Assembly (NCBI GenBank): GCA_019752045.1
Contig: JAIEMP010000011.1
Coordinates: 62,001 to 126,000, forward strand
Length of the DNA: 64,000 nucleotides
Source: Chitinophagaceae bacterium
Lineage (GTDB): Bacteria > Bacteroidota > Bacteroidia > Chitinophagales > Chitinophagaceae
Direction of reading: 5' to 3'
Shown here: positions 7,899-62,757 of the stretch, piece by piece
Position numbering within the stretch: the stretch's first letter is position 1
Layout: each line of letters begins with the position of its first letter
Position numbers and translations under genes: made by a program
The notes under the pieces: model-generated
The model's input: only the letters and a program-made list of their open reading frames with translations
Databases searched by the model: none
Told to the model about the DNA's origin: nothing

Positions 7899-7900
7899 TT

Positions 7901-7953: not shown

Positions 7954-8730
7954 ATGCTGAAGAATAAAAATATCGTCATCATCGGTGGAACCACAGGCCT
8001 CGGTTTATCAGCAGCAAAAGCCTTTGTGGCCAACGGAGCAAATGTTGTTGTTGTAGGAAGAAGCGAAGAAAGTGTAACCGAAGCAAAAAAAATTTTGGGA
8101 AATAATGCTATCGCCATCAGCGGCGATGCAACAAATCCTGATACTGCCATCAACGCCATCAACAGCTGCATAGAAAAATTTAAAACATTCGATGGCCTCT
8201 ATCATGTTGCAGGTGGCAGCGGAAGAAAATTCGGTGATGGTCCCTTGCACGAACTAACACTGGAAGGCTGGAACAAAACCATGGAGTTTAACCTTACTTC
8301 TTTAATGTTAAGCAACCAGGCTGCAGTAAAACATTTTTTAGAAGCTAAAACGGCAGGAACTATTTTAAACATGGGTTCTGTACTAAGCTATTCACCATCG
8401 CCACAATTTTTTAGTACACATGCCTATGCCGCAGCAAAAGCTGCTATTATTGGTTTTACAAAATCAGTTGCAGCATACTATGCAAAAAATAATATCCGCA
8501 TCAATGTAATTGCACCGGCATTGGTAGAAACACCAATGGCACAACGGGCTGCAAATGATGAAGAAATTTTAAACTTTATCAAAACTAAACAACCATTGGA
8601 CGGTGGACGCATAGGCCAACCCGAAGACTTAAACGGACTGGCCATTTATTTTATGAGTGATCAATCAAAGTTTACAACGGGTCAGGTGATAGCGGTGGAT
8701 GGGGGATGGACAACAGGAAGCCCCACCTAA
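7954..8730 (+). CDS. Short-chain dehydrogenase/reductase
   Basis: A classical SDR of 258 residues. The cofactor motif GGTTGLG is at residues 11-17, the catalytic serine is near residue 142 (NMGSVLS), and the YxxxK pair is Y158/K162 (YAAAK). The C-terminal IAVDGGWTTGSPT is typical of the family. Enzymes of this type interconvert alcohols and ketones on sugars, steroids or fatty acyl groups with NAD(P). In this sugar cluster a polyol or keto-sugar substrate is likely but not shown. The stop codon lies inside the head of a palindromic repeat element, so the last residues may have been altered by that insertion. Confidence 0.88.
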   Translation: MLKNKNIVIIGGTTGLGLSAAKAFVANGANVVVVGRSEESVTEAKKILGNNAIAISGDATNPDTAINAINSCIEKFKTFDGLYHVAGGSGRKFGDGPLHELTLEGWNKTMEFNLTSLMLSNQAAVKHFLEAKTAGTILNMGSVLSYSPSPQFFSTHAYAAAKAAIIGFTKSVAAYYAKNNIRINVIAPALVETPMAQRAANDEEILNFIKTKQPLDGGRIGQPEDLNGLAIYFMSDQSKFTTGQVIAVDGGWTTGSPT

Positions 8731-8909
8731 ATCCTCCCCCGAGGGGAGGACTTGCGAAGAGTATGAAAATTTGAAGATGGGTTAAAAATGATAGAGTAAT
8801 TCAATAATTGTTGAGTAAAGATTTATTGTTGATATGGAAGATAAAATTTTTAGCGATGGTATACTGCACCGCTCCTTCCCTTCGGGGGAAGGAGATGGAG
8901 GAAGGGGCC
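8720..8909 (+). repeat. 190-nt REPIN-like element spanning two genes
   Basis: The head (8720-8755, core cctcccccgaggggagg) contains the SDR stop codon. The tail (about 8862-8909, core ctccttccc..gggaaggag, ending gaaggggcc) lies inside the N-terminus of the ROK gene. Head and tail are imperfect inverted copies of each other. The 190-nt length and the layout match elements at 56400-56588 and 59660-59850. This copy supplies both the end of one gene and the beginning of the next. Confidence 0.85.
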
Positions 8910-9805
8910 TTTTCATCGGCATCGATCTCGGCGGCACCCGCATTAAAGGAGTTGCCATCGACAGCAATGGAAATGTATTACATCAAACCTACACAGCTAC
9001 CAATGATGGCGAAGGTGAAGTATGGAAAGTGGCAATAAAAAAAACAGTAAATGATTTAAAAGAAAAATTAAAAGCAGATGAAATTGGTGTAGGTATTTCT
9101 GCTCCCGGTTTACCTAATAAAGAAAATACAGCCATAGGTTTTATGCCCGGGAGATTAGAGGGATTAGAAAATTTTATCTGGAGTAATTATTTAAACTGTC
9201 CTGTGTATGTTTTGAATGATGGAGTAGCAGCATTAGTTGCTGAAGCAAAAACAGGTGCTGCAAAAAATAGTATCAATGCAATCATGGTAACACTCGGTAC
9301 AGGTGTTGGTGGTGCATTATTAATAAATGGTAAACCGTTCCAGGGTTCGTTTAATAAAGCAGGACATATTGGTCATACGGTTTTAGATAGTGATGCAGAC
9401 TGTGATGTTACAGGTATGCCCGGCAGTTTGGAAGAATGTATTGGCAATTGCACTATTGAAAAAAGAACAAACGGAAAATTTACTTCCACTCATGAATTAC
9501 TGAAAGCACACCGGAATGGCGATGCGTTTGCAAAAGAGGTGTGGTTGACATCAGTAAGAAAATTGGCAATGGGTATTGCATCAGCCAGTAATCTGATATC
9601 ACCTGATACCATTATAATTGGCGGCGGTATTGCAGAAGCAGCTGATGATTTGTTTATACCATTAAATAAATGGATGGATGTGTATGAATGGCAGCCCGGT
9701 GGCATTCGTCCGCAAATTGTAAAAGCAATACATGGAGATATGGCTGGTGCCATTGGTGCCGCATGTTTTGCAATGAGTAAAGAACAAAAAATAATAATCG
9801 AGTAA
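8834..9805 (+). CDS. ROK-family sugar kinase with repeat-encoded N-terminus
   Basis: The ATP-binding motif DLGGTRIKG is at residues 31-39, with the phosphate motifs VLNDGVAALVAEA and GTGVGGALLINGK and the GHIGH metal/substrate motif further on. It probably phosphorylates a hexose such as glucose in the cytosol. The cysteines of the usual ROK zinc site (CxCGxxGC) are not conserved; the region reads DCDVTGMPGSLEE. The first 25 residues (MEDKIFSDGILHRS...) are encoded by a palindromic repeat, and no ATG, GTG or TTG lies between this start and the native FIGIDLGG, so the repeat must supply the start codon. The stop overlaps the next start (TAATG). Confidence 0.87.
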   Translation: MEDKIFSDGILHRSFPSGEGDGGRGLFIGIDLGGTRIKGVAIDSNGNVLHQTYTATNDGEGEVWKVAIKKTVNDLKEKLKADEIGVGISAPGLPNKENTAIGFMPGRLEGLENFIWSNYLNCPVYVLNDGVAALVAEAKTGAAKNSINAIMVTLGTGVGGALLINGKPFQGSFNKAGHIGHTVLDSDADCDVTGMPGSLEECIGNCTIEKRTNGKFTSTHELLKAHRNGDAFAKEVWLTSVRKLAMGIASASNLISPDTIIIGGGIAEAADDLFIPLNKWMDVYEWQPGGIRPQIVKAIHGDMAGAIGAACFAMSKEQKIIIE

Positions 9806-13358: not shown

Positions 13359-13387
13359 GGCGTTGATTTTTGGTTTAAAAAAAATGA

Positions 13388-13470
13388 GCCGCAGATTCGC
13401 AGATTATGTTTTAAAAGATCGAAACCGCTGATTCAAAGAATATGTATTAAATAATCTGCGAATCTGCGGC
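13388..13470 (+). repeat. 19-bp perfect inverted repeat (CGCAGATTCGCAGAT type)
   Basis: The sequence gccgcagattcgcagatta (13388-13406) is repeated as its exact reverse complement at 13452-13470, separated by 45 bases. Within each arm the unit CGCAGATT is itself tandemly repeated. A single arm recurs at 20337-20354. The element fills the spacer between the PSD1 and DUF1501 genes and looks like a small non-autonomous palindromic repeat. No T-tract follows, so it is not a normal terminator. Confidence 0.85.
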
Positions 13471-13488
13471 AAATAATAATAGTAAGCA

Positions 13489-17575: not shown

Positions 17576-18604
17576 ATGAATACAATTCCAATTCGCACAA
17601 CAGTAGTAGGCAGTTATCCTTTTCCGGGTTGGCTGGAGTTTGCTTCGCAAAACATGGATAAGTTTGGTAAAGCCGATATTGAAGAAATGATTGAAGACGC
17701 CGTGATCGCTGCTATACATGATCAGGTAACTGCAGGTTTGGATGTAATTACCGATGGCGAACAAACCCGTCTCGATTTCAATTTGTCTTTTTATGGTTTT
17801 ATCAAAGGCATTGAAAATAATGATACCGAAACAAGAAAATTTGGCCCGGCTGCACATGATCAACGTGGAAAAAATAATATAGTAGGAGAGTTGCTTGCAC
17901 CAAATGGTTTAGGGGCAGTTGCAGAATATTTAAGGTTGAAAAAATTAGCACCTGCAGGCCCCACATTAAAAGCAAGTATACCGGGCCCGTTTACACTAAG
18001 CGGTAGATTATTGCCAAATGAAAAATACAAAGACCGCTACGAAATTACTGAGGCATTGCTGCCCATCATCAGTAAAGAACTGGAAGCATTGGTAGCAGCA
18101 GGGTGCACAGAAATAACTGTTGATGAACCCAGCATGAGTTGTTATGCTTATAAAGAAGACACCAAACGTTTTGTTGATATTTTTAACCGTACGGTAAAAC
18201 CCATTGTGGGCAAATGCAATCTCAGCACCCATTTATGTTTTGGAAATTTTAAAGGTCGCCCGGTTGGTTTCAGAACTTTGAAACCCATGTTGCCCGATTT
18301 TTTAGAAATGAATGTTGATGAAATTCATATTGAAATGGCCAACCGTGAATTTGCCGAAATCGAATTACTGGCACCGTTTGCTGAAAAGATGAATGTGGCT
18401 GTCGGCATTATTGATGTAAAAAATTATTACATCGAATCGGTGGAGGATGTGGTGGAAAGAATCAACCGGTGTCTGAAATATATTCCTGCAGAAAAATTAT
18501 CGGTAGCACCGGATTGCGGACTCAGTCAAACAGCAAGATGGGCCAGCAGACAAAAATTAAATAATATGGTGAAGGGAGCAAAGAAAGTAAGAAGCCTCCT
18601 CTAA
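17576..18604 (+). CDS. MetE-like (cobalamin-independent methionine synthase C-terminal) protein
   Basis: The protein corresponds to the catalytic half of MetE (UROD/MetE-like fold), beginning TTVVGSYPFP and containing DGEQTRLDF near residue 65. Candidate zinc ligands are visible in STHLCFGNF near residue 220 and PDCGLSQTARW near 308. At 342 residues it lacks the N-terminal half of MetE, as in many archaeal-type or stand-alone methyltransferases. It may transfer methyl groups to homocysteine or a related thiol. Its presence in a sugar cluster is unexplained. The stop codon lies in the head of a palindromic repeat. Confidence 0.8.
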   Translation: MNTIPIRTTVVGSYPFPGWLEFASQNMDKFGKADIEEMIEDAVIAAIHDQVTAGLDVITDGEQTRLDFNLSFYGFIKGIENNDTETRKFGPAAHDQRGKNNIVGELLAPNGLGAVAEYLRLKKLAPAGPTLKASIPGPFTLSGRLLPNEKYKDRYEITEALLPIISKELEALVAAGCTEITVDEPSMSCYAYKEDTKRFVDIFNRTVKPIVGKCNLSTHLCFGNFKGRPVGFRTLKPMLPDFLEMNVDEIHIEMANREFAEIELLAPFAEKMNVAVGIIDVKNYYIESVEDVVERINRCLKYIPAEKLSVAPDCGLSQTARWASRQKLNNMVKGAKKVRSLL

Positions 18605-18887
18605 CTCCTCCAAAGGAGGAGAACAAAGCAAGAACTCAAAAGTGGTAAGTGCTTTTTGAATACTGCAGCCTTTGATTTTATTTTGAATAAAGATGAAATG
18701 TTGAAATGGAAGATTAGATGTTTATTAAAGATTTGAAGCACCGTCCCTTCTCTTTTGGAGAAGGAATAAGAGGGATGAGGTCTTGGCGTAGAATAAAAAA
18801 CCAATGTTGAAATGGAAGATAAAATGTTAACCGAAGGTATAGTGCACCGCTCCCTCTCTACGGGAGAGGGAGCTGGAGGGAGAGGCC
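18594..18887 (+). repeat. Double REPIN-like element between MetE-like and MBL genes
   Basis: A head (18594-18621, core ctcctccaaaggaggag) contains the MetE-like stop codon. A first tail with the palindrome ccttctcttttggagaagg ends near 18782. A second tail (18837-18887, core ctccctctc..gagagggag, ending agaggcc) lies inside the MBL gene. The sequence atggaaga(t) before each tail recurs (18703, 18812), so the tail unit appears tandemly duplicated. Confidence 0.8.
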
Positions 18888-19645
18888 TATGGTGGCTTGG
18901 ACAAAGCGGCTACCTGTTACAATGGAACGGCAAACGAGTGTTGCTCGATCCATACTTATCAGATTCACTCACAAAAAAATATGCAGCCACGGATAAACCG
19001 CATACAAGAATAGGTGAGATGGTAGTAAAACCGGAGTTGCTGAAAAATATTTCGATCGTTACTTCAAGTCATAACCATACCGATCATTTGGATGCAGAAA
19101 CATTAATGCCCATTTTACAAAATAACTCAGGAATAAAATTTGTTATTCCTGAAGCCAACAGAATTTTTGTGGCCGACAGGGTTAAATGTAAAAACGATTT
19201 TCCTATTGGATTAAATGATGGGCAATCGGTAACTATTGATGACTTTACATTTCACGGCATACCTGCAAAACATAATGAAATAGACCGTGATGAAAAAGGC
19301 AATTGCAAATACATGGGTTATGTAATTGTGTTTGGTCCATATAAAATTTATCACAGCGGCGATACGCTTTGGTTTGATGGAATGGTGGATTTATTAAAGC
19401 CCTTTAATGTGGATGTGGCATTGTTGCCTATAAACGGTAATAAACCTGATCGGAAAGTGGCAGGTAATTTAGATTGCAAAGAAGCGGCAGAACTGGCAAA
19501 AGCTATCAATGCAAAAATGGTTATTCCCTGTCACTATGACCTTTTTGAATTTAATACTGCTGATGTAAACGAGTTTGTGATGGAAGCAGAAAAAATTAAT
19601 CAGCCATATAAAGTATTGAAAGGAGGAGAAAGATATAGTTTTTAA
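18812..19645 (+). CDS. MBL-fold metal-dependent hydrolase (UlaG-like) with repeat-encoded N-terminus
   Basis: The metallo-beta-lactamase motif is HNHTDHLD near residue 89, with further ligands in YHSGDTLWF and PCHYDLFEF, as in UlaG-type lactonases. The native fold begins at about residue 27 (WWLGQSGYLLQWNGKRVLLDPYLS). Residues 1-25 (MEDKMLTEGIVHRS...) are encoded by a palindromic repeat and resemble the start of the ROK kinase, which is otherwise unrelated. All possible starts lie in the repeat. A role in lactone or phosphodiester hydrolysis of sugar derivatives is likely; the precise substrate is unknown. Confidence 0.85.
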   Translation: MEDKMLTEGIVHRSLSTGEGAGGRGLWWLGQSGYLLQWNGKRVLLDPYLSDSLTKKYAATDKPHTRIGEMVVKPELLKNISIVTSSHNHTDHLDAETLMPILQNNSGIKFVIPEANRIFVADRVKCKNDFPIGLNDGQSVTIDDFTFHGIPAKHNEIDRDEKGNCKYMGYVIVFGPYKIYHSGDTLWFDGMVDLLKPFNVDVALLPINGNKPDRKVAGNLDCKEAAELAKAINAKMVIPCHYDLFEFNTADVNEFVMEAEKINQPYKVLKGGERYSF

Positions 19646-20129: not shown

Positions 20130-20356
20130 TTTCACGCAAAGACGCAAAGAAACAGCGGCGCAAAGAAGAAAATAAAATAGGTTGCTTGTATAGATTGAGA
20201 AAAAAAGCTGCCATGAAAACTAAAGGTACAAGCCCGCCCGGCTGAACGCCGTTCGGACGGGTGAGTGACACAACAGACGATGCCATGAATACTTCGGCTG
20301 GGCTCAGTACTAAAGCTGGGTTCAAAAAAAATATTGGCGCAGATTCGCAGATTATT
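20130..20356 (+). repeat. Spacer made of several short repeat types
   Basis: This 240-base spacer holds ttcacgcaaagacgcaaag and a second cggcgcaaagaa unit (20130-20167), a GC-rich dyad (cccgcccggctgaacgccgttcggacggg, 20228-20257), a gagtgacacaacagacgatgcc module (20261-20283), and one arm of the CGCAGATTCGCAGAT repeat (20337-20354). No gene is visible. The GMC start at 20369 follows at once. Confidence 0.7.
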
Positions 20357-20368
20357 TAATTAAATTAA

Positions 20369-45416: not shown

Positions 45417-47678
45417 TTGAAATCAAGAGCCTTTAAGCATGTCCTCATGCTGTTGCTTGTGTGTTCTCAGGTGCAGCATGCAACTGCACAGATCAGTAAA
45501 ATTGATCAGCGGGTTGAATCTGTTTTAAAACGGATGACACTGGAAGAAAAGATCGGTCAAATGAACCAGTACAATGGCGACTGGGCAGCTACCGGTCCCA
45601 TTACAAAAGATGGTGATAAACAAAATCAGATCAGAAAAGGAATGGTGGGAAGTATGCTCAACGTTACCGGTGTAAATCATACCAGAACATTGCAGGAAAT
45701 TGCCATGCAGTCACGAATGAAAATTCCGTTGTTATTTGGTCAGGATGTGATACATGGTTACCGTACAACATTTCCCATTCCTTTAGCAGAAGCAGCAAGC
45801 TGGGATATAGAAGCCATTGAACGCAGTGCAAGAATAGCTGCTGTTGAAGTAGCTGCAGCTGGTATTCACTGGACCTTTGCACCCATGGTCGACATCAGCC
45901 GTGATCCACGCTGGGGAAGAGTTATGGAAGGTGCAGGTGAAGATCCTTATCTGGGAAGCATCATAGCAAAAGCAAGAGTAAAAGGTTTTCAGGGAAAAGG
46001 TTTTGGCAACACCGATGCAGTGATGGCTTGCGTAAAACATTTTGCAGCTTATGGTGCAGCAGTTGGCGGCCGTGATTATAATTCGGTTGATATGAGTATG
46101 CGTACACTGTACGAATTATATCTGCCACCATTTAAAGCAGCGCTTGATGCAGGTGCTGCAACATTCATGAATTCATTTAATGATCTCAACGGAATTCCTG
46201 CAACAGGAAATACTTTTTTACAACGTGACCTGCTGAAAAATAAATGGAAGTTTACAGGATTTATTGTGAGCGATTGGGGAAGTGTGGGCGAAATGATTAA
46301 CCATGGTTTTGCAAAAGATAATGCACATGCTGCCATGCTTGCTGCCAATGCAGGCAGTGATATGGATATGGAAAGCAGAAGCTATATTCAACACTTGGCA
46401 AGAATGGTGAAAGAAGGAAAAGTGAAGATGAGTGTAATTGATGATGCTGTACGCCGCATACTAAAAAAGAAATTTGAAATGGGTTTGTTTGATGATCCGT
46501 TTAAATTTTGTAATGAAGCAAGAGAAAAAGAACAATGGAACAATCCTGCACATTTATCTGCAGCAAGAGATATAGCAAAGAAGAGTATTGTGTTATTAAA
46601 AAATGAATCCCCTCTTGGGAGGGGTGCAGGGGTGGGTTTGTTGCCAATCAGCAAACAAACCAAAACCATTGCTGTCATTGGTCCATTTGCAAAAGCGGTG
46701 AAAGACAATTTAGGTTTCTGGAGTTACGACTGGGCCGATGATACAGCAAGAATAAAAACGTTGTGGAGTGGTATTCAAAAAAAATTAAGTGCCGACTCTA
46801 AGATGATTTATGCAAAAGGATGTGGTATTACAGATACAAGTAAGGCAGGTTTTAGTGAAGCGGTGAATGCAGCTATGAATGCCGATGTTGTTGTGGTAAC
46901 GGTTGGTGAAGAAAGAGCCATGAGTGGTGAAGCTAAAAGCCTCAGCAGCATTCAGTTGCCGGGTGTACAGGAAGAATTGATAAAAGCATTGATGGCAACA
47001 GGTAAACCGGTTGTGGTATTGATCAGTGCAGGTCGTCCATTGATTTTTAACTGGACGGCCGATCATGTACCTGCTATTCTTTATACCTGGTGGTTAGGTA
47101 CAGAAGCAGGCGATGCTATTGCTGATGTGTTGTTTGGAGATTTTAATCCATCGGGTAAATTACCCATGAGTTTTCCAAGAACAGAAGGACAGATTCCTGT
47201 TTACTATAATTATTACAATACAGGACGTCCGGCAAAAAATGAAAACGATCTCAACTATGTATCGGCTTATATTGATTTACCCAACAGTCCAAAATTTCCG
47301 TTTGGTTATGGGTTGAGTTATACAAGGTTTGAGTATGGACAACTGCAGCTCAACAAAACATCGTTAAAAGGCAATGAGCAATTGAAAGTAAGTGTTACTG
47401 TCAGCAACTCCGGACAATATGCAGGAGAAGAAGTAGTGCAATTGTACATCAGGGATATGGTGGGTTCGGTTGTAAGACCTGTGAAAGAATTAAAAGGCTT
47501 TCAAAAAATCATGCTGCAGGCAGGGGAAAGCAAAACAGTTTCATTCGTGATTACAACAAACGATCTCCGCTTTTATAATAATGAGTTGAAGTTTGACTGG
47601 GAAGCAGGAGAATTTGAAATCATGATTGGAGGAAATTCAAAAGATGTGAATGTTGAGAATGTAAGCTGGAGTAAATAA
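45417..47678 (+). CDS. bglX: Periplasmic GH3 beta-glucosidase with repeat insertion
   Basis: The full BglX architecture is present: signal peptide, TIM barrel with FGQDVIHGYRTTFPIPLA and nucleophile Asp286 (IVSDWGSVGEM), sandwich domain and Fn3 tail. The start is TTG at 45417; an ATG at 45447 would leave a truncated signal peptide. A short palindromic repeat at 46608-46638 adds an in-frame SPLGRGAGVG stretch at about residues 398-407, in the linker between the barrel and the sandwich; the paralogue at 30254 lacks it. It should release glucose from the GH16 products. Confidence 0.92.
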   Translation: MKSRAFKHVLMLLLVCSQVQHATAQISKIDQRVESVLKRMTLEEKIGQMNQYNGDWAATGPITKDGDKQNQIRKGMVGSMLNVTGVNHTRTLQEIAMQSRMKIPLLFGQDVIHGYRTTFPIPLAEAASWDIEAIERSARIAAVEVAAAGIHWTFAPMVDISRDPRWGRVMEGAGEDPYLGSIIAKARVKGFQGKGFGNTDAVMACVKHFAAYGAAVGGRDYNSVDMSMRTLYELYLPPFKAALDAGAATFMNSFNDLNGIPATGNTFLQRDLLKNKWKFTGFIVSDWGSVGEMINHGFAKDNAHAAMLAANAGSDMDMESRSYIQHLARMVKEGKVKMSVIDDAVRRILKKKFEMGLFDDPFKFCNEAREKEQWNNPAHLSAARDIAKKSIVLLKNESPLGRGAGVGLLPISKQTKTIAVIGPFAKAVKDNLGFWSYDWADDTARIKTLWSGIQKKLSADSKMIYAKGCGITDTSKAGFSEAVNAAMNADVVVVTVGEERAMSGEAKSLSSIQLPGVQEELIKALMATGKPVVVLISAGRPLIFNWTADHVPAILYTWWLGTEAGDAIADVLFGDFNPSGKLPMSFPRTEGQIPVYYNYYNTGRPAKNENDLNYVSAYIDLPNSPKFPFGYGLSYTRFEYGQLQLNKTSLKGNEQLKVSVTVSNSGQYAGEEVVQLYIRDMVGSVVRPVKELKGFQKIMLQAGESKTVSFVITTNDLRFYNNELKFDWEAGEFEIMIGGNSKDVNVENVSWSK
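46608..46638 (+). repeat. Palindromic repeat inside the GH3 coding sequence
   Basis: The sequence tcccctcttgggaggggtgc followed by aggggtgggtt matches the short repeat form at 56799-56826 and 57866-57897. It is translated in frame as part of the GH3 linker. Confidence 0.8.
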
Positions 47679-52955: not shown

Positions 52956-54356
52956 GTGGGAAAATCATTATTTGAAAAAATCTGGGAACGTCACGTAGTG
53001 AAAACGATTGAAGGCGGTCCATCTGTTTTATACATCGACACACATTTTATTCACGAAGTAACCAGCCCGCAGGCATTTAACGGGTTGAATAAAAGAGGTA
53101 TCAACGTTTTTCGTCCGAAACAAACTGTTGCAACGGCCGATCATAATGTACCAACACTCAATCAACACTTACCTATTAAAGAAGAGTTGAGTCGTAAGCA
53201 AGTGGAAGCGTTGATTAAGAATTGTGATGAGCATGGAGTGGAGTTATATGGGTTGGGACATCCGTACCAAGGCATTGTGCATGTAATTGGTCCGGAGTTA
53301 GGTATTACACAGCCGGGCGCAACGATTGTTTGTGGTGATAGTCATACATCAACGCATGGTGCGTTTGGTGCCATTGCATTTGGTATTGGTACCAGCGAAG
53401 TAGAAATGGTATTGAGTACGCAATGTTTGCTGCAGAGTAAACCCAAACTGATGCGCATTAATGTGGAAGGTGAATTAAATAAAGGTGTGGTTTCAAAAGA
53501 TATTGTGTTATACATCCTTTCTAAAATTTCTGCCAGTGGTGCTACGGGTTATGCTGTTGAGTTTGCCGGTTCTGCCATCCGTTCTTTGAGCATGGAAGCA
53601 CGGATGACCATTTGTAACATGAGTATTGAAATGGGCGGACGTTGTGGCTTGATTGCTCCTGATGAAACAACCTTCAACTATATAAAAGGAAGAACGTTTG
53701 CTCCGTCGGGTGAAGAATGGGATAAAGCATTGGCGCATTGGAAAACATTTTTCAGCGATGCGGATGCAATATTCGATAAAGAAATAAATATCAATGCAGC
53801 TGCTATTGAACCGATGATCACGTACGGAACAAATCCGGGTATGGGCATCAGTGTAAATGAAACAATACCAACTGCTGCAACGATAAATGAAAATGATCAA
53901 TCGGGTTTAAGCAAATCACTTGCTTATATGGGCTTGCAGGAAGGCACAGCAATTAAAGGACAAAAAGTGGACTATGTTTTCATCGGCAGTTGCACCAACA
54001 GCCGCATCGAAGATCTGCGCATGGTTGCATCATTTGTAAAAGGAAAGAAGAAAGCCGATGATGTGGAAGTATGGATCGTTCCGGGAAGTAAACAAGTTGA
54101 AGCTCAAGCGAAAGCTGAAGGCATTGATAAAGTATTTGAAGAAGCAGGATTTGTGTTACGTCAGCCGGGTTGCAGTGCTTGTCTTGGTATGAATGAAGAT
54201 AAAATTCCTGCAGGTAAATATTGCATCTCTACTTCCAACAGAAATTTTGAAGGAAGACAAGGTGCGGGTGCAAGAACATTGCTGGCGAGTCCGTTAACGG
54301 CAGCTGTTGCAGCGATTACGGGGAAGGTGGGGGATGTGAGAGAGTGGCCCCTCTAA
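52956..54356 (+). CDS. leuC: 3-isopropylmalate dehydratase, large subunit
   Basis: The aconitase-family subunit binds a [4Fe-4S] cluster through cysteines in [12 protein letters not shown] (near residue 345) and [12 protein letters not shown] (near residue 407). It isomerises 2- to 3-isopropylmalate with LeuD. At 466 residues it has normal length. Translation starts at GTG (52956), since the next ATGs are internal and [15 protein letters not shown] is the expected N-terminus. The last residues and the stop codon (WPL-stop) lie in the head of a repeat element. Confidence 0.95.
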
Positions 54357-54522
54357 ATCTCCCCGAAGGGGAGACTTCGCTACGCACATGCTTGCTTTTT
54401 TAAAGTGATCGATAAAATTTAAAATACTGTTTGATAAAATGATTTTTAAAAATAAAAAAAGATTTCCCGAAAAACTGGGGCCTTGCAGTGATGGTCCCGT
54501 TTCGACGGGATCGGAAGGGGGC
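54346..54522 (+). repeat. REPIN-like element in the leuC-leuD spacer
   Basis: The head ggcccctctaaatctccccg (54346, core ctccccgaaggggag) contains the leuC stop codon and continues into acgcacatgcttgctt. A more diverged tail (ggtcccgtttcgacgggatc, then ggaagggggc) ends at 54522, eight bases before the leuD start. Confidence 0.8.
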
Positions 54523-54530
54523 TTTAAATT

Positions 54531-55145
54531 ATGAGTAAAGCATTTACAACAATAACAAGCCGGTTTGTTCCACTCAACATGGAGAATGTTGATACGGATC
54601 AGATCATCCCTGCACGATTTTTAAAAGCAACAACAAGAGATGGGTTTGGTAAAAATCTGTTTCGTGACTGGCGTTATGAAAATGATGATGAAACAAAACC
54701 CAAAGCAGATTTTGTATTGAATCAACCGCAATACAGTGGTGAAATTTTAGTTGCTGCGAAAAACTTCGGTTGTGGCTCTTCACGTGAACATGCTGCATGG
54801 TCTATCCAGGATTATGGTTTCAATGTAGTAGTGAGCAGTTTCTTTGCAGATATATTCAAGAACAATGCATTGAATAACGGAGTGTTGCCAGTAACAGTTT
54901 CGGATTTTTTTTTAGAAAAAATATTTGCTGCATCTCGTGTAAATCCAAATGCTGAATTAGAAATCAACCTACAGGAGCAAACGATTAAATTATTAGGGTC
55001 TGAAGCCCCTCCTTCGGAGGGGTTTGGGGAGGTATTCGAGATCAATGCATATAAGAAAACATGCATGATCAACGGGTATGATGATATTGATTATTTGCTG
55101 AGTATAAAAGAAGATATCATCAATTATGAAAACTCGGCCCCCTAA
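54531..55145 (+). CDS. leuD: 3-isopropylmalate dehydratase, small subunit
   Basis: The swivelling domain of the dehydratase is recognisable from [14 protein letters not shown] near residue 21 and [20 protein letters not shown] near 83. It completes the active site with LeuC. At 204 residues it is normal except for an inserted [10 protein letters not shown] stretch at about residues 158-167, encoded by a palindromic repeat between the last beta strand and [14 protein letters not shown]. The stop codon lies in a second repeat. Activity is probably retained because the insert is in a surface loop. Confidence 0.93.
55004..55032 (+). repeat. Palindromic repeat inside leuD
   Basis: The core cccctccttcggagggg followed by tttggggaggt is the short form of the repeat, translated in frame as [10 protein letters not shown]. 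It equals an inverted-end unit of the full elements. Confidence 0.85.
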
Positions 55146-55287
55146 ATCCCCCAAAGGGGGACTTGGTAACATGTTGCATAAATAACGAATAACCTAAATA
55201 GAAAAAATAAAGAAGATGGATAATACCAATGATGATAGAAAAGCGAATGCCGACAGTTCCTCCCCTTCGGGGAGGTTAGGAGGGGCC
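55136..55287 (+). repeat. REPIN-like element joining leuD and leuB
   Basis: The head ggccccctaaatccccc (from 55136, core cccccaaaggggg) contains the leuD stop codon. The tail cctccccttcggggagg (55259-55275), ending ggaggggcc at 55287, lies within the first 24 codons of leuB. Confidence 0.85.
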
Positions 55288-56397
55288 TATAAGATTGCCA
55301 TATTAAACGGTGACGGGATTGGTCCTGAAGTAACGGCCCAGTCCATTAAAGTATTAAATGCCATTGCACATCAATACGGACATACATTTCATTATAAAGA
55401 AGCATTGATCGGAGCAGATGCAATTGATAAAACAGGAGAAGCATTGCCATCTGCAACAGTTGATATTTGTTTAGACAGTGATGCAGTTTTGTTTGGTGCT
55501 GTTGGTCACCCTAAGTATGATAATGATCCTTCTGCAAAGGTGCGTCCGGAGCAAGGGATTCTCGGCATCCGCAAAGCATTGCAATTGTTTGCAAATATTC
55601 GTCCTGTTACTACTTATCCAACCTTGCAACATTTATCACCCTTAAAATCTTCGCAACTGGAAGGTGTTGACTGTGTCATCTTCCGTGAGTTGACCGGTGG
55701 TATTTATTTTGGTAAGAAATCAACCAGTGAAGATGGAAACAGTGCAAGCGATGAATGTTACTACACACGTCCGGAAATTGAACGTGTTACACATCTTGCG
55801 TTCAGGTATGCACAAAACAGAAAGAAGAAAGTAACGCTCATTGATAAGGCCAATGTTTTGGAAACTTCCAGACTGTGGCGAAAAGTAGTACAGGAAATTG
55901 CTGCACAGTACAGCGACATTGCCATCGATTATATGTTTGTTGACAATGCAGCCATGCAGATGATCTTAAACCCCAAGCAGTTTGATGTGGTGTTAACGGA
56001 AAATATGTTTGGTGATATCATCAGCGATGAAGCAAGTGTATTAAGTGGATCATTGGGAATGCTTCCTTCTGCTTCAGTAGGAAACGGTACAGCGTTGTTT
56101 GAACCAATTCACGGTTCGTATCCGCAAGCTGCGGGGAAAGATATTGCCAATCCAACAGGTTCTATTTTGTCAACAGCAATGATGCTGGATCATTTTGGTT
56201 TACAGGCAGAAGCGCAGGTGATTCGTGAAGCAGTAGACTGGACACTCCAAAACAACTTTGTTACAAAAGATATTGATCCGGTGAATTTTTATTTCACAAG
56301 CACCATTGGTGATTTGATTGCAGATTATGTGAGTGGAAAAATTCCGGGATCTGTTCATAAAGGGAATATTGAGTTAAGGAAGTCGACGATTATATAG
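55216..56397 (+). CDS. leuB: 3-isopropylmalate dehydrogenase with repeat-encoded N-terminus
   Basis: The NAD-dependent decarboxylating dehydrogenase of leucine synthesis is shown by IAILNGDGIGPEV at about residue 27, RPEQGILGIRKAL, ELTGGIYFG and VLTENMFGDIISDEAS. From the native start the length is normal (about 367 residues). The 24 residues before YKIAIL are encoded by the tail of a repeat element (SSSPSGRLGGA), and there is no other start codon between them and the native fold. It follows leuD by 70 bases. Confidence 0.93.
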   Translation: MDNTNDDRKANADSSSPSGRLGGAYKIAILNGDGIGPEVTAQSIKVLNAIAHQYGHTFHYKEALIGADAIDKTGEALPSATVDICLDSDAVLFGAVGHPKYDNDPSAKVRPEQGILGIRKALQLFANIRPVTTYPTLQHLSPLKSSQLEGVDCVIFRELTGGIYFGKKSTSEDGNSASDECYYTRPEIERVTHLAFRYAQNRKKKVTLIDKANVLETSRLWRKVVQEIAAQYSDIAIDYMFVDNAAMQMILNPKQFDVVLTENMFGDIISDEASVLSGSLGMLPSASVGNGTALFEPIHGSYPQAAGKDIANPTGSILSTAMMLDHFGLQAEAQVIREAVDWTLQNNFVTKDIDPVNFYFTSTIGDLIADYVSGKIPGSVHKGNIELRKSTII

Positions 56398-56399
56398 CA

Positions 56400-56588
56400 G
56401 CCCCTCCAAACCTCCCCCGAGGGGAGGCTTGCTGAGCACAAGCCAAGCTTAACTAAGAGGTTGAATAAAATGCCAGTGGTTGGTGTGTGATGATTAAAGA
56501 TATAACGATGATGTGGTAGATAATTAGATTGGTAAAAAAGTGATGCGCCGCTCTTTCCCTTCCGGGGAAAGAGAAGGAGAAAGGGGCA
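56400..56588 (+). repeat. 189-nt REPIN-like element after leuB
   Basis: The head gcccctccaaacctcccccg (core cctcccccgaggggagg) begins just after the leuB stop and continues to gcttgctgagcacaagcc. The tail gatgcgccgctctttccc..gaaaggggca ends at 56588. Length and part order match 8720-8909. This copy is wholly intergenic and is the best reference copy. Confidence 0.85.
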
Positions 56589-56594
56589 TAGTTC

Positions 56595-56625
56595 TTTGTT
56601 TATTTGATTAAAGGCGGTATATTCG
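56595..56625 (+). promoter_or_regulatory. Putative ilv promoter
   Basis: A -33 box TTTG (56595-56598) stands 19 bases before TATATTCG (56618-56625), one mismatch from TAnnTTTG. The predicted start near 56632 is about 11 bases upstream of the leader peptide ATG, which makes ilvEDBNC a separate attenuated transcript from leuACDB. Confidence 0.55.
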
Positions 56626-56642
56626 TTGTACAACAAACAACG

Positions 56643-56744
56643 ATGTTGAAGAACAGTAACAATAATGTCATCTCTGCAATCGCAATAAATATTGTGGCAG
56701 TCATTATTATTCCTGTAATCAACGGAGGTGCAAGTTGTATGTAA
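56643..56744 (+). CDS. ilv leader peptide (33 aa, Ile/Val-rich)
   Basis: This small ORF is absent from the ORF track. The peptide MLKNSNNNVISAIAINIVAV-IIIPVINGGASCM contains eight isoleucines, four valines and one leucine. The run VIIIPVI closely resembles the E. coli ilvGMEDA leader (VVVIIIPP). It starts right after a putative promoter and is followed 25 bases later by a perfect intrinsic terminator. Ribosome stalling at the Ile/Val codons under starvation should permit antitermination. The peptide itself probably has no other function. Confidence 0.85.
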   Translation: MLKNSNNNVISAIAINIVAVIIIPVINGGASCM

Positions 56745-56797
56745 CAAATAAAACGAATTAACATAACGACCCGCCTCCAAAAGAGGCGGGTTTTTTT
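56724..56797 (+). terminator. Transcription attenuator before ilvE
   Basis: The terminator is cccgcctc (56770-56777), loop caaaa, gaggcggg (56783-56790), then seven T. A competing antiterminator arm ggaggtg (56724-56730), inside leader codons 27-30, can pair with cgcctcc (56772-56778) over seven pairs with one wobble and so break the terminator. A ribosome stalled on the earlier Ile/Val codons leaves this arm free. A ribosome that reaches the stop at 56742 covers it and lets the terminator form. Confidence 0.85.
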
Positions 56798-56798
56798 A

Positions 56799-56826
56799 TC
56801 CCCTCCCTGGAGGGGTAGGGGTGGGT
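56799..56826 (+). repeat. Short palindromic repeat before ilvE
   Basis: The unit tcccctccctggagggg followed by taggggtgggt directly follows the attenuator T-tract, 20 bases before ilvE. It is the short repeat form seen inside the GH3 gene and at 4560. Confidence 0.75.
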
Positions 56827-56845
56827 AAAAGGTAAATCACAACAC

Positions 56846-57781
56846 ATGACAAACTATTATAACAACAACACAATACTTTTTCTCAACGGAGAATTTGTAA
56901 AAGCAGCAGAAGCAAAGATGGATTTCTACAGTCAGTCTTTGCATTACGGGTACAGTGTGTTCGAAGGAATTCGATCATACAAAACAACAAATGGAGAAAC
57001 AAAAATTTTCAAAGCTGTTGAACATTATGAGCGGTTGAAAAATTCTGCTGCAGCTATGAATATGCCCTATCACTGGTCAACAGAAGAATTGATTCATGCA
57101 ACATATGAAGTATTAACAAAAAATAATTTACAGGATGCATACATACGGCCCGTTGTATACGCACCGGCAAACATGAAGTTTGATGTAAATGAGCAATCAT
57201 TCATTGTTATTGAAGCATGGGCTATGCAACCGTTTTTAGGAGATCAGTTGCTCCGCATCATGACCAGTTCATTTGAACGGCCCAACCCGAAAGGGTTTAA
57301 GATACATGCAAAGGCAGCAGGGCATTATGTGAATTCCATTTTAGCAAGTCAGGAAGCAAAAGCCGCTGGTTATGATGAAGCACTGTTAACTGATATGAAT
57401 GGGTTTGCTGCAGAAGGTCCCGGTGCTAATTTATTTTATGAGAAAGATGATAAGCTTTTTACACCCGCATTGGGAAATATTTTACCCGGCATTACAAGAG
57501 CAACTGTATTAGAGTTATGTAAAGAGTTGAGTATAGAAGTGGAAGAAACATTTTTCACAATTGAAGAATTAAAAACAGCTGACGCTGCATTCTTTTGCGG
57601 CACTGCAGCAGAGGTGATTGGATTTGAAAGCCTGGATGCGTACAAATTCCCGATGAAATGGAATGAAAGTGTAAGTAGAAAAATTCAGGTGGCGTATAAA
57701 GAATTGGTGGTGGCCCCTCCAAACCTCCCCCGGGGGGAGGTTTACTTCGCACAGCCCTTGCTTAGCGGAGTGGTTAAGTAA
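56846..57781 (+). CDS. ilvE: Branched-chain amino acid aminotransferase
   Basis: A class IV PLP aminotransferase that makes the final transamination to Ile, Val and Leu. SLHYGYSVFEGIRSYKT near residue 31, GFKIHAKAAGHYVNSILASQEAKAAGYDEALL with the PLP lysine region near 155, and the PLP phosphate-binding GITRATVLELCKE near 215 support this. The native protein ends near VAYKELVV. The last 22 residues (APPNLPRGEVYFAQP...) are read through the head and interior of a repeat element. It is the first gene after the attenuator. Confidence 0.93.
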   Translation: MTNYYNNNTILFLNGEFVKAAEAKMDFYSQSLHYGYSVFEGIRSYKTTNGETKIFKAVEHYERLKNSAAAMNMPYHWSTEELIHATYEVLTKNNLQDAYIRPVVYAPANMKFDVNEQSFIVIEAWAMQPFLGDQLLRIMTSSFERPNPKGFKIHAKAAGHYVNSILASQEAKAAGYDEALLTDMNGFAAEGPGANLFYEKDDKLFTPALGNILPGITRATVLELCKELSIEVEETFFTIEELKTADAAFFCGTAAEVIGFESLDAYKFPMKWNESVSRKIQVAYKELVVAPPNLPRGEVYFAQPLLSGVVK

Positions 57782-57945
57782 TTTGAGAAAGTTTGAAATG
57801 TGATGAGTAAAGAACATAAGTTGAAATGCTTAATTACAAATATTGATGAAGAAGTTGAGGCTGGGTCTCCCCTCATGGGAGGGGATTAAGGGGTGGGTTG
57901 ACGAATAGAATAGCCAAACGCAGAAGTGTGCGACGCAACAAAAGT
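57712..57945 (+). repeat. Composite repeat between ilvE and ilvD
   Basis: The head ggcccctccaaacctccccc (from 57712) with acttcgcacagcccttgctt lies inside the ilvE C-terminus. A short-form palindrome tctcccctcatgggagggga (57866-57885) and the gtgcgacgcaac module (about 57927-57939) follow. This copy combines the parts of both repeat types. Confidence 0.82.
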
Positions 57946-57980
57946 TAAATAGAATAATAACAGACGACAACAAAATAAAA

Positions 57981-59693
57981 ATGGACGAACTCAATAAATA
58001 TTCAAAGACATTAACACAGGATGAAACACAACCTGCAGCGCAGGCGATGTTGTATGGTATTGGATTAACAGAAGAAGATCTAAAGAAACCGCAGATCGGT
58101 GTGTGCAGCATGGGATACGATGGAAACACCTGCAACATGCATTTGAATGAGTTGGCAAAAGATGTAAAACAGGGTGTATGGAAAAATGAAATGGTGGGAT
58201 TGATTTTTAACACCATTGGTATCAGCGACGGAATCAGTAATGGTACGGATGGTATGCGTTATTCATTAGTGAGTCGTGATATTATTGCTGATAGTATTGA
58301 AGCAGTGTGCGGCGGATTTTATTATGATGGGCTGATTGCATTACCCGGCTGCGATAAAAATATGCCCGGTGCAATTATGGCCATGGGTCGTTTAAACCGT
58401 CCTTCAATCATGGTATATGGTGGTACAATTGCTGCAGGACATTACAAAGGCGAAGAGTTGAATATTATTTCGGCATTTGAAGCATTGGGTAAAAAAATTG
58501 CAGGCACCATCACGCCTGAAGATTTTAAAGAAGTGGTGAAACATAGTTGTCCTGGTGCAGGTGCATGTGGTGGAATGTACACAGCAAATACAATGGCAAG
58601 TGCTATCGAAGCATTGGGTATGAGTTTGCCATTTTCATCGAGCAATCCTGCGTTGAGTGAGGATAAGAAAAAAGAATGCCTCGATGCAGGCAAAGCAATT
58701 AAAGTGTTGCTGGAAAAAGATATCAAGCCAAAAGATATCATGACAAAGAAAGCATTTGAAAATGCAATTACTACAATCATGATCTTCGGCGGAAGCACCA
58801 ATGCTGTATTGCATCTCATTGCAATGGCAAAGAGTGTGGATGTAGAATTAACACAGGACGATTTTCAACGCATCAGCGATACAACACCTGTGCTCGCCGA
58901 TTTTAAACCAAGTGGCAAATATCTCATGCAGGAGTTACATGCACATGGTGGTGTGCCTGCAGTGATGAAATATTTATTGCAAAAAGGATTGCTGCATGGC
59001 GATTGTTTAACTGTTACAGGCAAAACAGTTGCTGAAAACTTAGAAAATATTGCGCCGGTAAATTTCGATACACAAAAAATTATTTATCCCTTAGAAACTC
59101 CGTTGAAAGCAACCGGTCATTTACAAATATTGTACGGCAATCTTGCAGAAAAAGGAAGTGTTGCAAAAATCAGCGGTAAAGAAGGAGAACGTTTTGTTGG
59201 ACCGGCACGAGTGTTTGATGGTGAAAAAGATTTAGTAGCAGGTATTGCAAACGGAAGAGTGAAAAAAGGAGATGTAGTTGTTATACGTTACGAAGGGCCA
59301 AAGGGTGCACCGGGTATGCCGGAGATGTTGAAACCAACTTCAGCTATAACTGGTGCTGGGTTAGGTAAAGATGTTGCATTGATCACTGATGGACGATTCA
59401 GCGGTGGTTCACATGGATTTGTTGTTGGACATATAACGCCTGAAGCATTCAATGGTGGATTGATTGCATTGGTAGAAGATGATGATATGATTGAACTGGA
59501 TGTTGCTGCAAAAAAAATGACATTGAAAGTGAGTGAAGAAGTAATTGCCGAAAGAAGATTAAGATGGAAACAACCTGCATTAAAAGTAACCAAAGGTGTG
59601 TTGTATAAATATGCCATGTGCGTGCAGGATGCAAGTGAGGGGTGTGTCACGGATGAGCCGGCCTCCCCAAACCCCTCCAGAGGAGGAGCTTAG
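57981..59693 (+). CDS. ilvD: Dihydroxyacid dehydratase
   Basis: The Fe-S dehydratase makes 2-oxo acids in Ile/Val synthesis. Cluster and substrate motifs GCDKNMPGA near residue 118, [18 protein letters not shown] near 193 and [17 protein letters not shown] near 467 are clear. At 570 residues it is about normal, but the last 11 residues ([11 protein letters not shown]) and the stop are encoded by the head of a repeat element. It lies 200 bases after ilvE in a repeat-filled spacer. Confidence 0.95.
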
Positions 59694-59850
59694 CAAGGCA
59701 CAGCCCTTGCTTGTTAAGATGACTAATGAAATGCAGATTGGTTGATGGTTGGTGATTAAAGATTTTAAGTTGAAGAGGAAGAAATGAAGTTTATCATATA
59801 GATAGTGTACCGCCTCCTCTCTTTTGGAGAGGAGGAAGGGAGGTGAGGCC
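59660..59850 (+). repeat. 191-nt REPIN-like element between ilvD and ilvB
   Basis: The head ggcctccccaaacccctcca (core cctccagaggagg) lies in the ilvD end, followed by gcacagcccttgctt. The tail cctcctctcttttggagagg, ending gaggtgaggcc, is at 59813-59850. The ORF track starts ilvB on a GTG in this tail; the native ATG is at 59885. Confidence 0.85.
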
Positions 59851-59884
59851 AAGTAGGCAAACATTGATTAATAAATTATTTGTA

Positions 59885-61633
59885 ATGGAAACGCTTGAAG
59901 TAAAAGAAAAAAAAGTAGAAGAAGTAACATCGAAATCCATCAGTGGTTCTGTTGCTGTATTGGATGTTCTTCTCTGCGAAAATGTATACAGCATCTTTGG
60001 TTATCCCGGTGGAGCTATTATGCCCATCTATGATGCATTGTACGATTACAAAGATCGTCTTCAACATATACTTGTTCGTCATGAGCAGGGTGCTATTCAT
60101 GCAGCACAGGGTTTTGCAAGAGCAAGTGGTAAAACAGGTGTTGTGTTTGCAACAAGCGGTCCCGGTGCAACAAATTTAGTAACAGGTTTGGCCGATGCGA
60201 TGATTGATTCAACGCCATTAGTATGTATCACCGGACAAGTGTTTGCACATTTGCTCGGCACCGATGCATTTCAGGAAACAGATGTCATTAATATAACAAC
60301 ACCTGTTACGAAATGGAATTATCAGGTAACTGATGCAACAGAAATTCCTGCGGTATTGGCAAAAGCATTTTATATCGCAGGCAGTGGTCGTCCGGGTCCT
60401 GTATTGATTGATATTACAAAGAATGCACAGCTGCAAATGTTTCAATACGAAGGATACAAAAAGTGCGATCACATCAGAAGTTATCGTCCTAAACCAATTG
60501 TACGTAAAGAATATATTGAAGAAGCTGCAAAATTGATTAATGAAGCAGAAAGACCATTTGTGATTTTCGGACAAGGTGTTATTCTTGGTAAAGCCGAACA
60601 GGAATTTAAACAGTTTATTGAAAAAGGCGGTTTGCCTGCTGCATGGACCATCATGGGCATGAGTGCAATACCAACTGATCATCCCTTAAGTGTTGGTATG
60701 CTGGGTATGCATGGTAATTACGGACCAAATGTATTAACAAATGAGTGTGATGTGTTGATTGCAGTAGGTATGCGTTTCGATGATCGTGTTACCGGGCGAC
60801 TGGATAAATATGCCAAACAGGCAAAGATCATTCATCTGGATATTGATCCTGCTGAAATTGATAAGAATGTAAAAGCAACTGTTGGTGTTTGGGGCGATTG
60901 TAAAGAAACATTGCCCTTGCTCACTTCATTGATTGAAAAGAAAACACATCCGAAATGGTTACAACTTTTTCATGATTACATGAAAAAAGAAACGGAGAAA
61001 TGTATTGAACCGGAAATGAATCCGTCTGGAGATGTGTTGTCAATGGGTGAAGTAATCAACGCATTGAATGAATTAACAAATGGCAACGCCATTATTGTAA
61101 CCGATGTTGGTCAGCATCAAATGGTCGCCTGCCGTTATGCAAAAATGAATTTTTCTAAAAGCAATATCACCAGCGGTGGATTGGGTACCATGGGTTATGC
61201 ATTGCCGGCAGCCATTGGAGCAGCATATGGTGACCCGTCTCGTACAACCGTTGCAATTATTGGTGATGGTGGTTTTCAAATGACGATACAGGAGTTGGGA
61301 ACCATCATGCAGTTTAAACCAAACGTGAAGATCATGATTTTAAATAATCAGTTTCTCGGAATGGTACGCCAATGGCAGCAGCTGTTTCATGAAAAGCGTT
61401 ATTCGTTTGTTGATATCACCAGTCCTGATTTTGTAGCAGTGGCAAAAGGATATTATATAGACGGGCAACGTGTTAGTGAAAGAGATAAACTAAAAGACGC
61501 TTTGCAAACCATGCTCAATCATGATGGAAGTTATTTATTAGAAGTGATGGTGGGTAAAGAAAATAATGTATTTCCCATGGTGCCGCAGGGAAGAGGTGTG
61601 GCGGAGTGTGTGTTGAGTAAAGAAGAGATATAG
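59885..61633 (+). CDS. ilvB: Acetolactate synthase, large subunit
   Basis: The TPP-dependent enzyme forms acetolactate or acetohydroxybutyrate. I use the ATG at 59885 (METLEVKEKKVEEV) because the upstream extension is repeat sequence. FGYPGGAIMPIYDALYD, the RHEQGAIHAAQGFARASGK segment with the catalytic Glu, and the TPP motif GDGGFQMTIQELGTIMQ..NNQFLGMVRQWQ near residue 460-500 are all present. The length of 582 residues is typical. It is followed by its regulatory subunit ilvN, with a repeat between them. Confidence 0.95.
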   Translation: METLEVKEKKVEEVTSKSISGSVAVLDVLLCENVYSIFGYPGGAIMPIYDALYDYKDRLQHILVRHEQGAIHAAQGFARASGKTGVVFATSGPGATNLVTGLADAMIDSTPLVCITGQVFAHLLGTDAFQETDVINITTPVTKWNYQVTDATEIPAVLAKAFYIAGSGRPGPVLIDITKNAQLQMFQYEGYKKCDHIRSYRPKPIVRKEYIEEAAKLINEAERPFVIFGQGVILGKAEQEFKQFIEKGGLPAAWTIMGMSAIPTDHPLSVGMLGMHGNYGPNVLTNECDVLIAVGMRFDDRVTGRLDKYAKQAKIIHLDIDPAEIDKNVKATVGVWGDCKETLPLLTSLIEKKTHPKWLQLFHDYMKKETEKCIEPEMNPSGDVLSMGEVINALNELTNGNAIIVTDVGQHQMVACRYAKMNFSKSNITSGGLGTMGYALPAAIGAAYGDPSRTTVAIIGDGGFQMTIQELGTIMQFKPNVKIMILNNQFLGMVRQWQQLFHEKRYSFVDITSPDFVAVAKGYYIDGQRVSERDKLKDALQTMLNHDGSYLLEVMVGKENNVFPMVPQGRGVAECVLSKEEI

Positions 61634-61636
61634 AAC

Positions 61637-61807
61637 GGCCCACTCTAACTCCCCCCGAGGGGGAGGATACCAACACACAGCCCTTACTTTTTTGAGTGTT
61701 TGATAAAGTATAAAGAAGTTGAAATTTAAAAGATTGAATCATGAATACGTTACAATTTAATCATACTGCTGCCCAACTCTCCCCCTTGGGGGGAGGCGGA
61801 GGGGGCC
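61637..61807 (+). repeat. 171-nt REPIN-like element joining ilvB and ilvN
   Basis: The head ggcccactctaactcccccc (core ctccccccgagggggag) with cacacagcccttactt follows the ilvB stop by three bases. The tail ctctcccccttggggggag, ending ggagggggcc at 61807, lies within codons 1-22 of ilvN. Confidence 0.85.
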
Positions 61808-62391
61808 GCAAGGAATTCACAATAACAGTTTACACCGAAAACCAAGTTGGGTTATTAAACCGCATCGCTATAATTTTTTCCAAGCGGAAAATTAATATCG
61901 ACAGTTTAAATACATCGCCCAGCGAAGTGGAAAGTGTACATCGTTTCACCATTGTCATCCATGAAACAGAAGAAGTGGTGCGAAAACTTTGCAGACAAAT
62001 TGAAAAGCAGGTTGAAGTATTAAAGGCCTATTACAATACCAATGATGAAATCATCTGGCAGGAGTTGGCCATGTACAAAGTGCCTACTGATATAATTGCT
62101 GAACAGGTAAAAGTAGAAAGGCTGTTGAGTCAGCACGGAGCCAAAGCTGTAGTGATACGTAAAGATTATACGGTGTTTGAAGTAGCGGGACAAAGAGAAG
62201 AAACAGACAATTTAATTAAAGTATTAGAACCTTACGGTTTAATTGAGTTTGTACGCAGTGCAAGAATTGCCATTATTAAAAGCAGTGATGGCTTTCATAA
62301 TAAATTGAAAGAGTTTGAATACAAAGAGCCGGGTGAAGTGGTGATTGAGAATGAGTATTTGAGTGAGAATGAAAAGGTGTTTAGTATGTAG
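61741..62391 (+). CDS. ilvN: Acetolactate synthase, regulatory small subunit
   Basis: The ACT domain FTITVYTENQVGLLNRIAII begins at about residue 25 and continues through SKRKINIDSLNTSPSE. The second half (YKVPTDIIAEQVKVERLL...) is the C-terminal ALS_ss domain. It binds IlvB and gives valine feedback. At 216 residues it is slightly long because the first 22 residues (QLSPLGGGGGGRK) come from the tail of a palindromic repeat; no native ATG remains before the ACT domain. Whether feedback is altered is unknown. Confidence 0.92.
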   Translation: MNTLQFNHTAAQLSPLGGGGGGRKEFTITVYTENQVGLLNRIAIIFSKRKINIDSLNTSPSEVESVHRFTIVIHETEEVVRKLCRQIEKQVEVLKAYYNTNDEIIWQELAMYKVPTDIIAEQVKVERLLSQHGAKAVVIRKDYTVFEVAGQREETDNLIKVLEPYGLIEFVRSARIAIIKSSDGFHNKLKEFEYKEPGEVVIENEYLSENEKVFSM

Positions 62392-62393
62392 GT

Positions 62394-62757
62394 GGCCCCT
62401 CCAAACCTCCCCCGAGGGGAGGCTTTCTAAGGCACAGCCCACGCTATTCAAAGGTGAAGAATAATGTTACGCTATTTAAAAATTTAATAGTCCCGTATGG
62501 ACAAAAGCTTTGTATAAAAAATGATAGTGTTCATGAGCGTCACGTAGAGACGCAACCTGGAAGGAAGACTAGAAGTGGATTGGCAATAATTAGAGTGGTT
62601 GAAGTGTGTTGAGCAAAGAACAAAACTTGATGTGGTAGTTAAATAGAAAGTATGAGGTATACGGTGCCGTCCTTCTCCTTGGGAGAAGGAAAAGAGGATG
62701 AGGTTGATGAATAGAATTCAAAACGTACAGGAGTGCGACGCAACAGTAACTCAATAG
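62394..62757 (+). repeat. Long composite repeat in the ilvN-ilvC spacer
   Basis: The 430-base spacer holds a head (62394, core cctcccccgaggggagg, then gcacagcccacgct), a middle part with cgtcacgtagagacgcaa (62540-62557), a tail with ccttctccttgggagaagg (about 62671-62690) and the module gatgaatagaattc..gtgcgacgcaac (62705-62744). No gene is visible. It is the longest copy of the element in the window. Confidence 0.8.

Follow-up and report, generated by a model that had tools for sequence, protein, structure and literature searches.

Palindromes that are read in frame inside proteins have been described in Rickettsia as Rickettsia palindromic elements (RPEs; Ogata 2000/2002; PMC10969869). As summarised there, RPEs resemble the repeats reported here in being dispersed palindromes that sit in frame in metabolic genes of unrelated kinds and are tolerated by the protein, and differ from them in length (~150 bp vs 31–37 nt here) and in host (Rickettsia vs Bacteroidota); a further difference is that here a full-length relative of the repeat carries a nuclease. 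REP sequences and REPINs, with their RAYT transposases, likewise are short GC-rich palindromes that occur in inverted pairs and overlap stop codons, and some copies lie inside ORFs, including those of tRNA synthetases, while the enzyme gene is flanked by its own repeats (PMC3733652). However, our repeats begin with GGCCCCTCYAAA or AACCCACCCC and, by eye, lack the GTAG/CGTC tag of the REP superfamilies, and the enzyme that they flank is a PD-(D/E)XK nuclease of the DUF559 family, where REPs have a Y1 tyrosine transposase. As in MITEs, the terminal inverted repeats are common to the autonomous element, here the DUF559 units with their inverted palindromes.

The flanked nuclease has described relatives of its own. 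EDxHD/Vsr-like homing endonucleases such as I-Bth0305I (PDB 3r3p; PMC3943268) share sequence homology with it and reside in conserved host genes, and a paper on a Thermosynechococcus genome places DUF559 in the EDxHD family (PMC9403480). The known EDxHD homing endonucleases, however, are linked to introns or inteins or are free-standing, whereas here palindromes form the flanks and there is no splicing unit. Inteins with homing endonucleases also sit in frame, at recurrent sites, in conserved essential proteins and with a patchy distribution, but unlike these the inserts described here, of ~150 residues including linkers, have no self-splicing (Hint) domain. Self-splicing is usually held to be what enables homing nucleases to live in conserved genes (PMC3943268). 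In the literature that we searched on DUF559, Vsr, COG2852/YcjD and palindromes, with most subscription papers outside the search, no palindrome-flanked, in-frame, non-splicing DUF559 is described, and the palindrome–DUF559 unit seems to be a mobile element of a kind not yet described.

The window, that is the whole stretch of 64,000 nucleotides analysed here, belongs to a genome of 4.16 Mb. A sequence-only reading of it had singled out two short palindromic stretches translated inside enzymes, one in a GH3 glycosidase and one in LeuD. Both are members of one GC-rich palindrome family with a main A type, GGCCCCTCYAAA-CCTCCCC-NNN-GGGGAGG-CTT, and a rarer sister B type, AACCCACCCC-nnnn-CCCCTC-nnnn-GAGGGG; one unit of 31–37 nt gives ~10–12 residues when translated. 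Using an A-type covariance model (R1; nine seeds, the LeuD copy among them), we find ~115 copies in the genome at E<0.25 and 135 matches at E<=10, and the core hairpin CTCCCCNNNGGGGAG with at most one mismatch has 40 genome matches vs 0 for a reversed-pattern control. Eight B-type copies are present in the 1.64 Mb, joined from stretches and with genes called by a hexamer model, on which the genome statistics below are based.

The GH3 copy is of the B type. It lies on the minus strand at 46603..46638 (AACCCACCCC-TGCA-CCCCTC-CCAA-GAGGGG; minus-strand sequence AACCCACCCCTGCACCCCTCCCAAGAGGGGA) within the plus-strand GH3 gene (45417..47678; Pfam PF00933, PF01915, PF14310), and positions 46608–46638 are translated in frame, as first read, to give SPLGRGAGVG (...LLKNESPLGRGAGVGLLPISK...). 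Over about 30 nt it matches, letter for letter, another copy that lies between genes at C2:475394. Since the copy scores poorly against the A-type model (12.7 bits), its membership of the family follows from its B-type matches. The protein has eight residues more than both same-genus orthologues, those of genomes G013 and G009, and an empty orthologue is shorter at the site (LLKN-DKQL-LPI). The GH3 paralogue at 30254, said to have no equivalent of the repeat, indeed has no repeat-derived sequence; its loop at this place is nonetheless about as long, though unrelated in sequence (LLKN-SPMRTGNGAPV-LPL). In the predicted GH3 structure, which is poor (pLDDT 55) and was built on a thin alignment, the insert forms a low-confidence loop between strands 381–386 and 407–411, weakly suggesting that this insert is placed in a surface loop, as first read.

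The LeuD copy is of the A type and lies on the minus strand at 55000..55034 in the plus-strand, single-copy leuD gene (54531..55145; TIGR00171, above cut-off). The reading frame bears out its translation within LeuD (55004–55032), and it scores 42.7 bits (E=8e-10) against R1, of which the copy is itself a seed. The insert is missing in 21 of the 22 other-species orthologues and present only in G009, whose LeuD is 87% identical; this, together with the extra residues in GH3, indicates that the residues are inserted and not ancestral. Around leuD, A-type palindromes supply the stop codon of the upstream ORF 52956–54356 (54346..54380, plus strand), overlap the stop codon of leuD itself (55136..55167, plus), lie in frame near the C-terminus of IlvE (APPNLPRGEV; 57712..57746, plus) and are at the C-terminus of ORF 57981–59693 (59660..59694, plus). 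Two others are part of the N-termini of LeuB (DSSSPSGRLGGAY; 55253..55287, minus) and IlvN (QLSPLGGGGGGR; 61773..61807, minus), IlvE and IlvN being identified by protein-family search. In LeuB and IlvN the N-terminus comes from the palindrome, and between the palindrome and the conserved core no start codon is left; in LeuB, the start position of the orthologues is lost at the palindrome. Intergenic copies of the A type lie on the plus strand at 56399..56433 (with an inverted hairpin ending near 56580), 61637..61671 and 62394..62428 (the best score, 50.6 bits), and of the B type on the minus strand at 56794..56827 and 57862..57899. The leu/ilv cluster (54346–62690) holds at least 12 palindromes in ~8.3 kb, far over the genome average; they stand at almost all of its gene junctions and within four of its genes. 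Elsewhere in the window, A-type palindromes mark gene 3′ ends on the plus strand at 8719..8755 and 18593..18627, with inverted partner hairpins at ~8872–8910 and ~18849–18888. Inverted pairs ~150–300 nt apart make up REPIN-like intergenic units (repeat family D1; 8719–8910, 18593–18888, 56399–56589 and 59660–59851).

The two host genes named in the sequence-only reading are real, but they are far too few: LeuB, IlvN and IlvE join them, as do ~30 genes outside the window. Of ~95 copies placed in the 1.64 Mb, 41 are wholly within coding ORFs and in frame, while a further 13 run across a gene end, where most provide the stop codon. The intragenic share is below the expectation from a coding fraction of ~88%, and intragenic copies have therefore been purged, though many survive. 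Hosts named from sequence include TadA, methylmalonyl-CoA mutase, adenine deaminase, IspG, PurH, UDP-glucose dehydrogenase, LeuRS, AcsA and MetH, and the palindromes are translated from either strand into peptides such as SSPSGGGREGA, APSNSPEGGE and SPLGRG. Some 30 of the 41 intragenic copies represent a net gain of 4–23 residues relative to same-genus G013 orthologues; five or six are common to G009. Codon alignments of 20 sites show that palindromes replace a few codons, and no clean or consistent target-site duplication is evident in them, the relatives being highly divergent; no movement of elements is seen in species-level comparisons. LeuRS, AcsA, PurH, TadA, IspG and LeuD have one locus each in the genome, and the products of LeuD, LeuB, AcsA and LeuRS score above NCBI family cut-offs. 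As LeuRS, AcsA and other hosts have no second copy, their interrupted genes are presumably functional.

Is the repeat selected to be readable in frame, as was proposed at the outset? Intragenic copies have on average 5.0 open frames of six and random genomic 35-mers have 3.6, but extragenic copies already have 4.4, a modest difference that does not favour such selection. Readability follows mostly from the high GC content; the purging of frame-breaking copies adds to it. The likeness to Rickettsia palindromic elements that had been noted, on the other hand, holds for the dispersed, in-frame occurrence in unrelated metabolic genes.

The main finding had been missed: a DUF559 nuclease gene, which itself inserts in frame in essential genes, is flanked by the repeats. 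The genome has five DUF559 ORFs (PF04480, Vsr-like PD-(D/E)XK), and all five, read by eye, are flanked by inverted palindromes; those at C7:162957 are of the B type, those at the other four A-like. Two palindrome pairs bracket ~110 residues matching DUF559, one in LeuRS and one in AcsA (acetyl-CoA synthetase), and in both the DUF559 unit, including its palindromes, is in frame within a single-copy enzyme. The predicted AcsA structure, also built on a thin alignment, has a confident DUF559 domain at residues ~521–635 (pLDDT 83–96) and a poor enzyme body; the matches listed by Foldseek were all acetyl-CoA synthetases. The DUF559 profile is homologous to 3hrl (endonuclease-like), 3r3p (I-Bth0305I, ‘Mobile intron protein’; E=7.5e-5) and PvuRts1I. 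Its catalytic pattern is D..ExDG..H, and 3r3p differs from it in aligning N at the second catalytic D. The ratio of repeats to DUF559 genes in this genome is ~115:5. Several short repeats, in IspG, MetH and IcmF, occupy sites at which other genomes have the nuclease. For most of the sites with a short repeat, no counterpart that bears the nuclease is known.

The association extends well beyond this genome. DUF559 is carried by 50 of the 117 genomes of the bacterial family, in ~105 copies of which ~48 lie in ORFs of at least 350 residues, and recurrent hosts named from sequence are LeuRS and MetH (two sites each), IcmF/methylmalonyl-CoA mutase, CinA, chorismate synthase, adenine deaminase, ArgB, HisA, MetRS and IspG. 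When the two 300-nt flanks of each locus are paired, an inverted repeat scoring at least 30 is found at 41 of 74 family DUF559 loci vs 0 of 70 control windows lying another 600 nt away, and at 31 of 80 GTDB loci vs 0 of 70 control windows. Across Bacteroidota, 71 of the 80 best DUF559 matches in GTDB genomes lie in long ORFs, a figure biased by taking the best scores to a profile made mostly of embedded copies, so that the family tally (~48/105) is fairer. Hosts among these are RecG (one site, Flavobacteriaceae), ValRS, IleRS, LeuRS, MetRS, PriA and MetH. The LeuRS CP1 site is free of inserts in most genomes of the family; ~14 have the nuclease there and four have smaller inserts, one of them with a degenerate palindrome. 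In L217 (G041 C90:8580–10112), one 1315-residue LeuRS ORF holds two DUF559 nucleases, apparently one per LeuRS site. DUF559 was also found on contigs labelled Limnohabitans (L294), Saccharibacteria (L321) and Staskawiczbacteria (L328); these labels are probably binning errors, for L294 because its RecG host looks Bacteroidota-like.

In a tree of 75 DUF559 domains, many copies from different genera cluster according to host site, jumps between hosts also occur, and the five copies of this genome fall in different clades. Across different hosts and genomes, hairpins are more alike where the nucleases are more nearly identical (Mantel r 0.36, 0/2000 permutations); hairpin type thus tracks nuclease lineage, even between different host genes. 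Embedded copies have D47, D60 and H64 in 45 of 45 cases and E58 in 44 of 45, and the active-site residues are thus essentially invariant. In RecG, where the insert is ~150 residues including linkers, of which ~110 are nuclease, the embedded nuclease is 69% and the host 73% identical, and to judge from these identities this element looks mainly vertical and conserved, so that current mobility may be low. The overall pattern agrees with a nuclease that is homing-like or transposes slowly and whose palindromic ends are cognate to it, some of its copies being old, stable and perhaps domesticated.

The short palindromes are probably the non-autonomous form of a non-splicing, homing-like, palindrome-ended DUF559 element. 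From the insertions, the flanking, the in-frame residence and the hairpin–nuclease pairing seen in the sequences, we infer that the element is mobile and that it works as follows. The autonomous form would consist of a palindrome, the DUF559 nuclease and an inverted palindrome. The nuclease would nick or cut DNA, either an empty allele or palindromes, and the element would then be copied in by repair or recombination. In DNA the palindromes would be the ends of the element, and once translated they would serve as Pro/Gly-rich linkers. Without splicing, the only copies to survive would be those that preserve the frame and lie in tolerant loops, and the host enzyme would be a single chain that retains an extra domain or peptide. 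Short palindromes could be spread in trans by the nuclease, or could remain after internal deletion; the spacing between the two end hairpins is even modulo 3 (9/8/8), so slippage deletions between them would not systematically preserve the frame. A broader reading, quite possible though tentative, is that these are phylum-wide selfish nuclease elements, intein-like without splicing: DUF559 would home in frame into essential genes, the hosts would be functional permanent fusions, and the same nuclease would scatter short palindromes as peptides over the proteome.

Could the palindromes instead be REPs moved by a RAYT (HUH Y1 transposase), with DUF559 a passenger between two of them? The genome has eight Y1_Tnp matches, REPs within ORFs are known in several species (PMC3733652) and the inverted pairs look like REPINs. 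We nevertheless consider this unlikely, as DUF559 is consistently flanked, hairpin type follows its lineage, the REP tags are missing and some Y1_Tnp genes bear other palindromes, e.g. AGGTATGCCATACTT. A crude hairpin scan of the eight Y1_Tnp loci gave no match to the repeat, but it was blank at every locus. RAYT as the mover was set aside on the other palindromes at Y1_Tnp loci, the hairpin scan being weak. At L006, a Y1_Tnp (RAYT-like) gene is flanked by its own palindrome, AGGTATGCCATACTT...AAGTATGGCATACCT (1261–1293, 2014–2075).

Alternatively, rather than being selfish elements, the DUF559 insertions may be domain fusions that are stable and do a job for the host, for instance RecG or a synthetase coupled to DNA processing, and the palindromes incidental linkers. 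The RecG-embedded copy, old, at one site and evolving almost as slowly as its host, would agree with this; the great diversity of unrelated hosts, the patchy presence, the same nuclease clade in different hosts and the palindromes dispersed without nuclease argue against it, and make it decidedly improbable. Removal of the inserts after transcription or translation, by an intein, an intron or ribosomal bypassing, would leave normal enzymes. Mobile bypassed palindromes exist elsewhere, and the hosts are typical intein or homing targets. Pfam, however, finds DUF559 and host domains alone in AcsA and LeuRS, with no intein domain, and no Rfam intron was found; a ~150-residue insert with ~110 residues of nuclease has no room for a splicing domain; and frame and freedom from stops are preserved, neither of which bypassing would require. 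We regard removal as very improbable. Chance likeness of GC-rich, low-complexity coding sequence, which the Pro/Gly-rich linkers might suggest, is refuted to the point of being negligible by the reversed-pattern control, the near-identical intergenic twin of the GH3 repeat and the insert-free orthologues.

To our knowledge, no enzyme has so far been tied to protein-coding palindromes of the Rickettsia type, and here a candidate enzyme sits between such palindromes. If the proposed palindrome-ended DUF559 element is real, self-splicing is not needed for a homing-type nuclease to live in conserved genes. It would also explain the oversized LeuRS, ValRS, IleRS and RecG of Bacteroidota, and the inserts would form a natural record of insertion-tolerant protein sites.

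Finally, the window holds other repeats. A separate repeat family, ACAACCCCGTTGGCGGTTGAAAACCCCGACGGC, occurs at 7900, 14997, 19644 and 22098, and inverted repeats with the core GCAGATTCGCAGATTAT lie at 13377–13472 and 20325–20364. A dispersed TTGCGTCGCACTCTT repeat is found at 4641, 15092, 22219 and 62709, twice just within ORF starts (15065, 22167). Elsewhere in this genome (G000), C8:171411–173638 contains a CRISPR-like array of ~30 repeats of 47 bp (GTTGTGTAAGAACTAAGTTACAATACAATTTGAAAGCAAATCACAAC).
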